Origin: Anas platyrhynchos
Taxonomy: Eukaryota > Chordata > Aves > Anseriformes > Anatidae
Assembly: GCF_047663525.1 (NCBI RefSeq)
Contig: NC_092589.1
Location: forward strand, 29,695,001 to 29,759,000
Direction of reading: 5' to 3'
Length of the DNA stretch: 64,000 bases
A model generated the notes under the pieces. That model did not search any database. It worked only from the letters and a program-made list of their open reading frames with translations, and was not told the DNA's origin. This document shows, in pieces, positions 15,160-21,592 of this stretch (positions within the stretch are counted from its first letter, which is position 1; each line of letters starts with the position of its first letter). The position numbers were made by a program, and so were the translations under genes.

Positions 15160-15460
15160 AGGCTGCAATGTCCTCGATCACTGCATTGATTCATTGCAAA
15201 TCATGCAGCAATCTCCATTTCCCATCCTTCTTCTCGATGACAAACACTGGTGAATTCCATGGGCTGTCTGTTGGATGTATGTCCTTGTTGGAGTTGTTCT
15301 TGAACCAACTCCTGCAGACTACTGCTTGGAAAAGAATCAGCTGAGCAATTCTAGTTCCCTTTGGTATGAGCACTGGAGGAGAGGGAGTCCATGCCATTGC
15401 TTGTATTATCCCTTCAAAATCCACATCAATTACTCTGGGCAGTACAAAAAGACCCATGGT
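15160..15460 (-). pseudogene. pol: ERV dUTPase-like segment and start of reverse transcriptase
   Basis: The first part (about 15457-15300) contains RVIDVDFEG and, further on, [13 protein letters not shown]. These are the third and last conserved motifs of trimeric dUTPases. About 20 residues later follows [20 protein letters not shown], the conserved entry of retroviral RT. TGA stops interrupt RT soon after, and the sequence breaks off at the polypyrimidine tract. The polymerase active site is not present. Confidence 0.7.
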
Positions 15461-15767
15461 CCCTTTACACTAAGAGGTATTTTACAGACCCAAGTGTCCC
15501 AAAGGGTGCATGCAGTCCGTTACTGTGGAGACATCCAATCCGGCGCTTCCTCGGGTTTGGGCAGTGGGGGAATCCACCGTGACGCAGTTGGTGGAACCAC
15601 TGGTGCAGCGGGCGATGACGGCTGCGGCCTGGCAGTCACCATCCCCCAGGGTGGTGACTGCCCACGACGGAGGGCCGGGGCACTGGAGGTGTCGCACGCC
15701 CCGCGCTCCCCTTCCTGTTTCGCCACCACAGCTGTGAAGGCTGACCCTCTGCGTTATTCTTCGAGTG

Positions 15768-15906
15768 GCAGCGGTTGGCCCAGTGCCAGCCCTTGCCGCA
15801 CGGTGGGCAAGCAGCGGGAGGAGCAGGGTTACCGCGTGTCCCCCCTCCCCGCTCCTCGCTGTGGGCATTCAGCAGCAAAATGTCCCGTGGCTTGGCAGCG
15901 GAAACA
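15768..15906 (-). pseudogene. gag: ERV nucleocapsid, two CCHC zinc knuckles
   Basis: Knuckle 1 (15906-15864) reads CFRCQATGHFAAEC and knuckle 2 (15809-15768) reads CPPCGKGWHWANRC. Both fit C-X2-C-X4-H-X4-C, the RNA-binding element of retroviral nucleocapsid. Two knuckles are usual for orthoretroviruses of this group. The two lie in different frames, so a shift has occurred between them. Confidence 0.8.
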
Positions 15907-15968
15907 CCGCCTGCCTCCCATTTGAAGTGCCACAGCAAAGGCTACGGCCAAAGCGACAGTGTGATGTT

Positions 15969-16520
15969 CTATGGACCCAACTCGATCACATGCCTCTGTG
16001 TTTGTGCTAATGTAGTATTAACAGGCAGGGCTTGGAGTATTTTCTTACAGTCTGTGTTTGCATTTTCCGCTGCCATAAGGGCCTCCTTCGCCTCGCGGTT
16101 GTCAATATCAATGAATTGCGTATAAGGCTCGCTAACTTGTTGCCTACTGCTAGTAAACGATGACTCGACTTTTCCCGCTTCAGGTAACTTCAGCACAGCC
16201 TGGAGGGCCAGAGACGCGGACTGCCGCAGGATGGCATCGTTGAGCCGAGCCTGCAATCTCGGATTAAGGAACGGCTCGGTCCCCATCAACTCTGGGATCC
16301 CGGCCCCCCGGAGGGGGTCGCCAGGCCCTCTTATATGCTTTACATATACTTTCCCCGTAGCCCCATGCGCTGTCCACACGCCCAAATCTGTCATACAATT
16401 GGTTAGAGACCCTCAGACACACACCTCGAGCCAGCCAGCAATTGGCCACTGCCAAGCTCATCTTTAACACCGTAGCCAAGTTACTTTATCTCGACCTTGC
16501 TCAAGTTTTTGTTTCTACCG
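15969..16520 (-). pseudogene. gag: ERV gag, capsid region
   Basis: Two overlapping minus-strand frames (16479-16264 and 16394-15969) carry capsid-like sequence. The second contains a major-homology-type segment around EPYTQFIDIDNREAKEAL followed by ENANTDCKKILQ, as in the capsid of beta- and alpharetroviruses. The need to change frame between the two pieces shows at least one frameshift. The gag start and matrix region are not recognisable. Confidence 0.65.
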
Positions 16521-17308: not shown

Positions 17309-18259
17309 TCAGCATGGCAGAAATTCATGGTTGGATTGGCTACAGTAATTAGTTTGCCAGAATTTCATTACAGCTCTTGCTAATGCTTTACAGAATCTGA
17401 GACGCTCTTCAGGTGCCCTAACCCACTGGGGTAGCTCCAACTGAATGGCATCAACGGCACCAGAATCACGGGAGCCAAAAGTCTTTGTTATGTATCCACC
17501 ACTATAATAGTTCCCATTATTGGGGCTAGGATTGGATGGAGAAGGCACACAAACATAACTGTTATTTTGTTCTTCAATATATTTACCCAAACTTCTGTTC
17601 CCTGCAAGCAGAGTCTCAAAAGACACACTAACTAGCTGATTGGCCAGATATCTAATGGAGGAACATGACGCAGAAAAGACACCAGAATTAAGGGAAGTTT
17701 TTGAAACTGTGTAGCCTAGTTCTATCCACTGTTCAGGATGTGCTTGTCCATGGATATCCAGAATCAGGCCCCTTGTCATCTGTGATTTTGCAGTGGTCAA
17801 AAATCCCATATAATCCTCCCAGGCCTGTTCTGCTTGGGGAATTCCAAAGGCGGCTTCTTCCTTTTCCCTGTTAGCATCCATCTTGAACCTCTGTAGGTGA
17901 TTTATAATGATATGTGGGAAGAAGCCATCAGTAATCTTGTTGATTTCTTCAGCAAGAACCTGAGCCACTTCTATGGTATACCTGTCTTGGTTGGTAGACA
18001 CTTTGCAGTTCTTATAGTCTTGAATGCTTCCAGGAGGACAATCATGAGAGAAAATACAAGAAGATGTCTCTGCATCCCAACAGCCAGCCTTTCGATCAGG
18101 GATGTCTTCAGGTTCCATTGACCCACCATGTGGGACAGAGAGGATCAGGTTCATGTTGCCCACTTGATATTCTGTGAAATTATTATGACCAAATAAAACT
18201 TCTCTGCTGCCAGTGTGTTTCAATAGCAAAGATAAAATGGAAAGGAAGAACGGATGCAT
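17309..18259 (-). CDS. Secreted N-formylglutamate amidohydrolase-like protein (FGase/HutG fold)
   Basis: An uninterrupted reading frame of 316 codons. Residues 4-13 are hydrophobic after a short start, which suits a signal peptide. Conserved FGase-type motifs stand in the expected order: SVPHGG at 41-46, RFKMDANR at 124-131 (compare the R...D.NR of HutG), LILDIHGQAH at 165-174 and QLELPQW at 273-279. His44 and His170 are likely metal ligands. A cysteine cluster (residues 60, 68, 74, 85) and N-glycosylation sequons at N27, N221 and N232 fit an extracellular, disulfide-bonded protein. Known: bacterial members release glutamate from N-formylglutamate in histidine breakdown. The substrate of animal members is not known to me, so only the fold and a hydrolase role are inferred. 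The upstream Met at 18367 lies before a good acceptor and is not preferred. Confidence 0.7.
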   Translation of the reverse strand: MHPFFLSILSLLLKHTGSREVLFGHNNFTEYQVGNMNLILSVPHGGSMEPEDIPDRKAGCWDAETSSCIFSHDCPPGSIQDYKNCKVSTNQDRYTIEVAQVLAEEINKITDGFFPHIIINHLQRFKMDANREKEEAAFGIPQAEQAWEDYMGFLTTAKSQMTRGLILDIHGQAHPEQWIELGYTVSKTSLNSGVFSASCSSIRYLANQLVSVSFETLLAGNRSLGKYIEEQNNSYVCVPSPSNPSPNNGNYYSGGYITKTFGSRDSGAVDAIQLELPQWVRAPEERLRFCKALARAVMKFWQTNYCSQSNHEFLPC

Positions 18260-18308
18260 GATTTTTATTTGCTGCTGGAAGACTTGGCAATAAGGAATAT
18301 GGCAGTAC
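18260..18308 (-). other. 5' UTR part of the FGase-like exon, after a splice acceptor
   Basis: On the minus strand CTGTCTTTTGCTTTTATGTAG ends at 18309 and is a strong acceptor. It implies an exon beginning at 18308 with 49 untranslated bases before the ATG at 18259, and at least one upstream non-coding exon at higher coordinates that was not identified. Confidence 0.5.
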
Positions 18309-18367
18309 CTACATAAAAGCAAAAGACAGATTTTAGATTTTTTACAGCTGGAAACATGAGTGTTCAA

Positions 18368-20907
18368 ATGCTGCTGGAATAATTAGTTACTGGTTAACCT
18401 ATTTTAATTTAACTCCAACTAGCACAAAGAAGAAAAGCACTTACAAGAGAAACAAGGGACTTAGTGTGGCTAGACATAACTAAGAGAATTCTCACAGAAC
18501 AACAGGACAAGGGAAATGGTAGGTTACTGGGCTGCCTTCATTCCCCAAGAACACAGAAGGATTGATTATTTGATCATCTTACCTAATCCCAGTGAATTGC
18601 CAGATCTCAGCAAAATATTTAAAATAAACATTTTCCCACCTAACCTCTGAAACTTGAAGAAAATTCTACCAAGATTTGATAAAACATCTGTATCTCATTG
18701 ACCTGAGTGACATGTCTTTCCATTATCCACATGCTTACAAAATCTAGAGGTTATTTCAACTCAGATCACCACTGGGTTTATCTAAAATAAACAGACTGAT
18801 AAAAATTGAGTGCTACCAAGCCCTATCTCTGTCTGCTCTTCAGGCTGAGTTAATTTCATAGCATCATAGACAGATACCAGTGAGTGCATTATGGAGTGAC
18901 TCTCTCCTCTTTGGTTTTCAAGTTCTTTCTCTTCGACACAGCTAAGGTATTTTTAAGCTCTCACTGACTGACGTTTTTTTGGAAAGCTGCAATTCAGCAA
19001 GGTGCTAAAAGTACTTACTGGTTTGGAGGTATTACATCCCTAAGAAAATCAATTGAGTGTAACCATGTTCGACAGCTGTAAAATGAATGAGTAAAGTCAG
19101 TGAAGAGCAGAATAAGAAAGGATACTTTTACTTCCATGAATTAAAAAAAAAAGCTTCACATAACACAGTCCAGGTGAAGAGTATGTGTGTATTAAATGGG
19201 TGCACTAACAGATGAGGCAGGCTGTGCTGTTGTCTGTATTGCCTTTACCATTAACTCGCCTGTAGAATAGCAGGGGCACAGAGGGACAGCTAAGTAAGAG
19301 AGCTGAATATCTGAAATAATCTGTCCACCACCACGCCTGGCCTGAGCGCATATATTACAGCGGTCAGTAATACTGAGAAGGGAAGCACTAAGGTTCCCAT
19401 CACCTTCATTTCCCCAAGCAGTCTGCACCCACTGACCTGTCTGGGGCTCCCTTCCACTACTGTGTGATGCATTTGTCTTCAAATCTGAAGGAGCAGTAAC
19501 CAGCAAAGGAGGCATCCTACACCCTACCCTTTTAATGCTGCCATAAAGACAGCACAGAGTATCTCTGCTCCCTGCTGTAACTTCTGCAGAGTCTCCTACA
19601 ACCCATGCAGCTCCCATTGGTATGGATGCATCCTCCCACCAGTTTTTCACACTTAAGAAAAGCAGAGAGCAATTTCACCCAGGTGACACAGCAAAATATT
19701 CTTTCCCTACTGTGAAGTCAGCTGTCAGCATCCTTGCTGGCTTTTTAGAAACAACCTCCTCTGCCTACTGGTCTGGTACACATTGGGGTGCCTGTGCACA
19801 AAGAGTGATTATCTTCTTTCTCAGATGAAAGTCATGAGCTAGAATCTGATCCCTGGAAATCTAATCTTGAGTTTTCCTTCAGAGCATAATCAAAAGCTCT
19901 TTTTTTTTTCCTCTCTCCTCTCTCTTATAAAGGATTTTCAGTCCTTTAACATGAGCTTTCAGCTTAAAAAGCTTATCCTCCATTGTTTATGGTTACCTAG
20001 GTTTCCCTGAGGCACAGGCTTATACCAGTTAGTTCACTGTTTGCATTACCAGAAACACAGAGAAAATATTTTCAAGCATTACTCAAAATCCTTTTTATCC
20101 AAGGGACAGACTACAGATAAAAATATAGCACAAGTCACTTATATAAGTCTAGGAATAGCTTACCTCAGGTACAGCGGGCCCCAGCAACAAGTTAAATAAA
20201 TCAACAGCAACAACTCACAGGTGCTGCTCACCTGCCTTAGGATTCAGGTTTCCTTTGCCTCAGGCTCTCAGCTTAAATACAATGACACAGCTGTTCATTT
20301 CCCACTATCGGCCCAGAAATTTGTTGTCACCTGCAGCAGTTCACTTGTCTTTTTACATTTTCTTGTTAATGATTGAATCAGACTTAACACCACTAGATTC
20401 CATTTTAAAAATACCTGCAGACACAGCTTTGTATGGTTCCCAAATGGGAAGAAAGCCACCCAGGCACAGTTCATGCTCTGGGCAAGCTTGGAGAGTGAGA
20501 AGGAAGTTACAAAATTTAGGAGGAAGCTAGAAAATTTACCTGTTTGCCATCTTCTCCATAAGGGGGAGGTTCATGTGAATAAGAAATAATTAAACTCTGA
20601 AGTAGGCTTCAAGATACCTGTTTATCATAGGTAAACTAACATTATTGCAAGTTTTAAAAAATCCTCAATATTTTAAACTGGCAGTAATCACTGTAGGATT
20701 ACTTTGAAGATTTACCTAAAAAGAAAGGGAGAGAGAGCTGTTCCTGACTCCGTGCCTTCAAAAGCGAAACTGAACTGACCATTGCACTCTGTCCAAGCAG
20801 GTCCCTAGAGGCCAGGCTGAGTCATGCAGCTGTGTGGCACAGAGATTTCATCTGCACCTGTATTTATCATTTCACAACTCAGAACTACAAAAAGCTAATA
20901 TATGTAT

Positions 20908-20954: not shown

Positions 20955-21592
20955 TTTAGAGCCAGCAGTGTGCCCTGGCTGCCAGGAGGGCCAACCATAC
21001 CCTGGGGTGCATCAAGCACAGCATTGCTAGTCAGTCGAGGGAGCTGATTGTCCCGCTCTACTCTGCGCTGGTGCAGCCTTACCTCAAGTACTGTGTGCAG
21101 TTCTGGGCACCACAGTACAAGAACATTAAATTGTAGAGTGTCCAGAGGAGGGCGACAAAGGTGGTGAAGGGTCTAGAGGTGAAGACATACAAGGAGTGGC
21201 TAAGGTCACTGGGCCTGTTCAGCCTGGAGAAGAGGAGGCTTAGGGGGGACCTCATCACAGTCTACAGCTTCTTCACGAGGGGGAGTGGAGAGGCAGGTGA
21301 CCTATTCTCTGTAATCACCAGTGATAGGATTCGCAGGAATGGTGTCAAGCTGAGGCAGGGGAAGTTTAGGCTGGACATCAGGAGGGGGTTCTTCACTGAG
21401 AGGGTGGTTGCACGCTGGAACAGGCTCCCCAGTGAAGTAGTCACTGCACCAAGCGTGTCTGAATTTAACAGGTGTTTGGACTGTGCACTTAGTCACATGG
21501 TCTAAACTTTTGGGTAGACCTGTGTGGTGCCAGGAGTTGCATTTGATGATCCTTACGGTTCCCTTCCAACTCAGGATATTCTATGATTCTTT
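20955..21592 (+). mobile_element. CR1 LINE, 5'-truncated 3' end
   Basis: The sequence encodes the C-terminal end of CR1 ORF2: [20 protein letters not shown], then [26 protein letters not shown] and a final segment ending LDCALSHMV. A short 3' UTR ends in GATATTCTATGATTCT, the usual avian CR1 terminus. Apart from a stop near 21135 the frame stays open over 115 codons, so this is one of the younger copies in the window. 5' truncation is normal for target-primed LINE insertion. Confidence 0.9.

Follow-up and report, generated by a model that had tools for sequence, protein, structure and literature searches.

Here, a gene for a probably secreted hydrolase of the N-formylglutamate amidohydrolase (FGase) type is described in the duck, Anas platyrhynchos. 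It lies in a stretch of 64,000 nucleotides (assembly GCF_047663525.1, contig NC_092589.1, positions 29,695,001 to 29,759,000 of the forward strand; hereafter the window). An initial annotation, made from the sequence letters alone, had claimed an intact frame of 316 codons, and this is borne out: the frame runs uninterrupted on the minus strand from an ATG at 18259 to a stop codon at 17309-17311, inside a stop-to-stop frame of 357 aa (17309-18382, minus strand). Its product shares 98% identity with an entry from Anas acuta, and a protein search returned 64 proteins at E ≤ 1 (best 1.2e-214), far above chance, which rules out a chance frame; a pseudogene is likewise rejected. It is as good as certain that the gene is real, and the overall result, a conserved and probably secreted vertebrate enzyme that belongs to a mainly bacterial superfamily and that databases list as uncharacterized, is genuine.

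Table 1. Features of the duck gene in window coordinates. Residue roles are inferred, that of E275 from the fold.
Feature	Position	Strand	Evidence
Coding sequence including stop, 316 codons, single coding exon	17309..18259	-	Frame reading; full-length relatives
Probable signal peptide, residues 1-18 (cleavage point approximate)	18206..18259	-	Hydrophobic stretch; similar N-termini in relatives
5' part of the coding exon after the likely splice acceptor AG (18309-18310)	18260..18308	-	Anas acuta isoform X2 reads through
Counterpart of the Anas acuta isoform X2 leader exon	21083..21126	-	Match in 13 of 14 alignment columns
H44 of SVPHGG, probable zinc ligand	18128..18130	-	Invariant in 86 of 86 rows
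RFKMDANR, R124-R131	17867..17890	-	R124, D128 and N130 invariant in 86 of 86 rows
DIHGQAH with H170, probable zinc ligand	17738..17758	-	D168 and H170 invariant in 86 of 86 rows
LELPQW with E275, probable catalytic base	17423..17440	-	E275 invariant in 86 of 86 rows
Cysteine cluster C60, C68, C74, C85	18005..18082	-	Kept in 16, 17, 17 and 18 of 20 rows

The four motifs proposed at the outset occur in the order claimed, SVPHGG (41-46), RFKMDANR (124-131), DIHGQAH (168-174) and LELPQW (274-279). Invariance was assessed in an alignment of 86 rows (A2), hand-picked from the duck protein and 139 hits with fragments, fusions and many bacterial rows excluded, and across the 36 vertebrate-grouped rows the catalytic-type residues show no change. 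On the basis of these invariant residues, the protein is predicted to bind zinc and to act as an amidohydrolase.

Several features point to export. The N-terminal hydrophobic segment has a Kyte-Doolittle mean of 2.35 over 11 residues starting at residue 3, and no 19-residue window exceeds 1.4 when the whole protein is scanned; the stretch is therefore taken to be a short leader and not a membrane anchor. Leaders like that of the duck protein are found in frog, lungfish and tubeworm relatives. Cysteines occupy positions 60, 68, 74, 85, 199, 237, 290, 306 and 316, with the cluster counts in Table 1 drawn from a 20-row alignment (A4) of vertebrate and nearby sequences, and N-glycosylation sequons are present at N27, N221 and N232. 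Furthermore, a bacterial secretion sorting tail is matched by 11 of the 86 alignment members. Export is likely because of the hydrophobic leader, the kept cysteines and these sorting tails. The duck protein is very probably secreted, and the extracellular enzyme envisaged by the initial annotation is thus supported at the sequence level by the leader, the lack of a membrane-length stretch and the kept cysteines.

Assignment to the FGase-type hydrolases stands as regards fold and relatives, whereas the duck protein itself falls below the gathering cut-off of the FGase family PF05013 (19 bits against 28.9; E 0.0017). PF05013 is matched by 54 of the 86 members at E ≤ 0.001 (best 6.2e-13), and in structure comparison the predicted fold comes closest to FGase-type structures, identity to 2q7s (Ralstonia) and 2odf (Agrobacterium) being 14%. 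Sequence searches of solved structures gave no match to the single duck protein and four weak rows with the 86-row profile, the best two of them in the bacterial C-terminal sorting tail. Meanwhile, the duck protein has no Pfam match to the M14 metallocarboxypeptidases. The protein can be called an FGase-fold zinc hydrolase with high confidence. Identity with HutG itself is rejected on score, 25.2 bits against the TIGR02017 equivalog cut-off of 278.75; the match is weak (E 9.9e-6, best stretch residues 246-280), and 40 of the 86 members match TIGR02017 at E ≤ 0.001. A PF05013 profile search of the duck genome returned zero matches and is uninformative on paralogues, because the gene under study was also missed.

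Three protein searches, covering all 64, the best 120 of 396 and the best 120 of 223 matches, place vertebrate relatives in birds, Crocodylus, Alligator (a fragment), many frogs, the salamander Pleurodeles and the lungfish Protopterus. Other eukaryotic relatives occur in the annelids Dimorphilus and Lamellibrachia, the rotifer Brachionus, the fungus Lichtheimia and a copepod, which from the gene names in its record is presumably Tigriopus, and bacterial relatives in many Bacteroidota as well as other bacteria. Vertebrate relatives therefore span the bird, crocodilian, amphibian and lungfish lineages, and the matches listed, most of them nameless, include no name of a mammal, ray-finned fish, squamate or turtle. 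One nameless row (P0014, 70% identity) could be a reptile, which bears on the apparent absence from squamates and turtles. A maximum-likelihood tree built from 75 rows unites the 22 vertebrate-grouped rows in one clade (support 99/99), with annelid, copepod, rotifer, fungal and nameless rows on the same side and 22 bacterial rows plus two further rows on the opposite side of a split supported at 99/87. The lungfish is outermost among the vertebrate rows (the remainder joined at 90/73); a smaller, quicker tree placed it beside the amphibians. Since the vertebrate rows form a single clade, the sequences fit vertical descent since at least the lungfish-tetrapod common ancestor.

Some individual rows stand out. 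P0058, a long-branched row from the eukaryote collection, falls on the bacterial side of the 75-row tree, and P0118, first placed among the nameless rows, is a named Verrucomicrobiaceae protein. P0066 (676 aa) was seen by eye to carry the enzyme domain twice in tandem. Gene models from Zosterops (P0015) and Hirundo (P0031) fuse part of the protein to a reverse transcriptase (RT), probably an artefact of gene prediction caused by a retroelement close by.

In the duck, the segment end that the initial annotation set at 18308 plausibly marks the edge of a splice acceptor, an AG standing at 18309-18310. The counterpart of the X2 leader exon has a donor-like GT beside it at 21081-21082, in a stretch (21030-21260, minus strand) that we take to be a CR1-like retroelement. 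The X2 leader is probably an alternative isoform outside the conserved protein, and is treated here as a side isoform because the Grus, Dromaius, Crocodylus, Bufo and lungfish proteins begin near the internal methionine. Some 1 kb past the gene's 3' end lies a broken endogenous retrovirus remnant (15194-16485, minus strand), whose stop-to-stop pieces, judged by eye, look like Gag zinc knuckles, a stretch of Gag capsid and dUTPase/RT-like pieces. The gene had also been placed between WDR64 and EXO1. Exons of EXO1 were located between 26123 and 33206 on the plus strand with a human EXO1 sequence as query, confirming that side; for WDR64, a scan with a simple WD40-type pattern, which is a weak test, found nothing convincing, and that side is unconfirmed.

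The substrate is approached here through the gene neighbourhoods of bacterial relatives. Glutamate-type neighbours, namely gamma-glutamyltransferase (GGT), Asp/Glu racemase, PRK09061-like deacylase and DgcA-like racemase, occur in 18 of 71 bacterial loci (overlapping counts: GGT 4, racemases 10, deacylase 7, DgcA-like 2), one of them, L014, being included solely by a weak match (E 2e-10). A SusD-like protein is present in 16 of the 71. Whole-genome searches then covered the genomes of 40 of these loci, with near-duplicates and short contigs excluded, and gave 47 family matches above 200 bits among the matches listed (rows below about 52 bits, which covered the sorting tail only, were dropped). 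Eleven of the 40 genomes have a GGT no further than 15 kb from a family member, split GGT matches having been merged by hand, and six have an Asp/Glu racemase at that range; 0.72 and 0.66 are expected under random gene placement that ignores contig ends and kinship. Any GGT match at all was found in 32 genomes. Two control families gave 0/40 within the same distance, an amidase family (0.63 expected) and the M17 peptidases (0.19 expected). Such counts are lower bounds, as the racemase annotated directly in L002 was missed in the search of its whole genome.

The poly-gamma-glutamate synthase PgsB scored above cut-off in five of the 40 genomes, in four of them on the same contig as a family member at distances of 5.4, 5.4, 5.4 and 15.0 kb (established by hand); the fifth genome carries it on a different contig. 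In one Bacteroidales genome (L007, L072), a TIGR04332 poly-gamma-glutamate system protein (279 bits; cut-off 100) lies between two family members, in a stretch that also holds PgsB (TIGR04012, 262.9 bits; cut-off 222.7), GGT and a DUF6305 protein, as well as AstE/AspA-like and DctM-like proteins that score slightly below their Pfam cut-offs there. A Verrucomicrobia genome has two GGT genes and a sodium/glutamate symporter 8-14 kb from a family member. Copies with links, a label that includes racemase or deacylase links besides GGT or PgsB, lie on several bacterial branches (9 label changes, at least 7 of them forced by well-supported branches). A poly-gamma-glutamate gene context is thus found for a minority of bacterial relatives, above expectation and in bacteria only, and the plain reading is that at least some bacterial members cut poly-gamma-glutamate or related gamma-glutamyl chains.

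Among the side observations on these loci, a set of DctM-like membrane protein, AstE/AspA-like protein and GGT recurs at L072:4546-12055, L045:914-5928 and L074:13618-18752. L072 and L045 add a DUF6305 protein, and PgsB is present in L072 and, for the genome of L074, immediately past GGT; the set may represent an operon for poly-gamma-glutamate. In four related Bacteroidota loci (L028:3723-8237, L029, L030 and L068), the family member is directly downstream of hisD, with an aminotransferase gene on its other side in three of the four; both neighbours were identified in L028 and assigned in the others by clustering. No clear histidine-degradation gene was seen among the annotated bacterial neighbours, most neighbour frames being without annotation, and a neighbouring amidohydrolase gave a weak hutI cross-match (39.8 bits against a cut-off of 298.15).

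For the duck protein, the proposal is of a functional gene for an exported FGase-fold zinc amidohydrolase, probably disulfide-braced and glycosylated, in which zinc would be held by H44, H170 and an acidic residue (D92 being the best guess), E275 would activate water, and N130 together with the invariant arginines would bind a substrate rich in carboxylate groups. The frame, its homology and conservation, the predicted fold and the bacterial gene context are shown by the data, and metal binding, secretion, activity and substrate are inferences. The enzyme would cut gamma-glutamyl amide bonds extracellularly, for example in poly-gamma-glutamate of bacteria or food. A gamma-glutamyl substrate is suggested by the gene context of the bacterial relatives, the step from bacteria to bird resting on unchanged catalytic-type residues and the shared fold, and is a tentative assignment held at slightly under an even chance. 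Poly-gamma-glutamate exists in D, L and mixed forms and, according to PMC3815933, also in cnidarian nematocysts, and therefore animals may meet it in both bacteria and prey.

A number of observations weigh against a gamma-glutamyl substrate. The fetched flanks of 53 of the 71 loci lack glutamate-type neighbours, no GGT comes as close as 15 kb to a family member in 29 of the 40 genomes, and certain members have neighbours of another kind, for instance histidine biosynthesis genes. Linked copies cluster on the tree beyond what shuffled labels give (9 label changes where shuffling averages 14.5), the linked genomes are partly related (G011/G012/G013; G036/G037; G006/G038), which inflates the count, and PF01019 and PF01177 are broad families. 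Fold scores fail to separate gamma-glutamate hydrolases from carboxypeptidases. The duck protein has no match at E ≤ 1 to the Pfam poly-gamma-glutamate hydrolase family, nor do the five families that the 86 members match at E ≤ 0.001 include it, and the PghL-type zinc glutamate of the PghP/PghL (YndL) hydrolases is not conserved, position 49 being E in 13 of the 36 vertebrate rows. Furthermore, the substrate may have shifted along the branch to animals, because animal-side and bacterial-side members split at 99/87.

The strongest rival is an extracellular N-acyl-amino-acid amidohydrolase with HutG-like chemistry, acting on N-formyl or other N-acyl glutamate or aspartate. The FGase-type folds, the TIGR02017 matches described above and the DgcA-like and AstE/AspA-like neighbours in some bacterial loci speak for it, but the duck protein is far under the HutG cut-off and the PgsB, GGT and SusC/SusD neighbours point to a polymer. 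Vertebrate histidine breakdown runs via formiminoglutamate, and no supply of formylglutamate is therefore expected in vertebrates; this rival is considered unlikely. A little less likely again is a peptidoglycan-directed amidase that cuts stem peptides in host defence or bacterial digestion: these peptides also hold gamma-linked D-glutamate, N-acetylmuramyl-L-alanine amidases are among Foldseek ranks 6-17, and racemase and L-Ala-D/L-Glu-epimerase-like genes neighbour some bacterial copies. The Brachionus relative (P0043) is even named pglyrp1 by NCBI, probably an annotation quirk, and no Pfam domain is listed for it. A catalytically dead or repurposed secreted protein that keeps the fold would accord with a literature search that turned up no activity for animal members, but is highly improbable given catalytic-type residues unchanged in every vertebrate row. 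Bacterial contamination or recent transfer into one bird lineage, which the richness of the wider family in bacterial members might suggest, is contradicted by the gene's location some 8 kb away from EXO1 within an assembly of 1.26 Gb and 42 contigs and by the single clade of bird, crocodilian, amphibian and lungfish relatives, and can be dismissed with near certainty.

The enzyme family takes its name from histidine breakdown in bacteria; the data add to it a vertebrate branch that is conserved, probably secreted and of no known function, and bacterial gene context provides a concrete substrate candidate for it. A gamma-glutamyl activity, if true, would turn a bacterial subfamily into gamma-glutamyl hydrolases, show how vertebrates can deal with gamma-glutamate polymers of bacteria and offer a candidate gene loss in mammals. 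The most specific form of this idea gives lungfish, amphibians, crocodilians and birds an exported poly-gamma-glutamate depolymerase of their own, inherited with a family also present in several other animal groups and lost in mammals; it is speculative and on balance doubtful, and such an enzyme would strip or digest bacterial gamma-glutamate polymers of capsule, slime or food. To our knowledge, no host-encoded capsule-cutting or digestive poly-gamma-glutamate activity is known in any vertebrate.

Literature searches on N-formylglutamate amidohydrolase in vertebrates, chicken, Xenopus, birds and metazoa, and on horizontal transfer, found nothing relevant, and the passages of PMC13082233 that were consulted hold nothing on this protein family. 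Among database entries, the uncharacterized LOC112984591 (Dromaius) and LOC122792476 (Protopterus) belong to the same clade as the duck protein and bear names that convey no function. Compared with the FGase family PF05013, the duck protein is distinguished by its probable secretion and by a cysteine cluster that is kept in vertebrate and several invertebrate rows.
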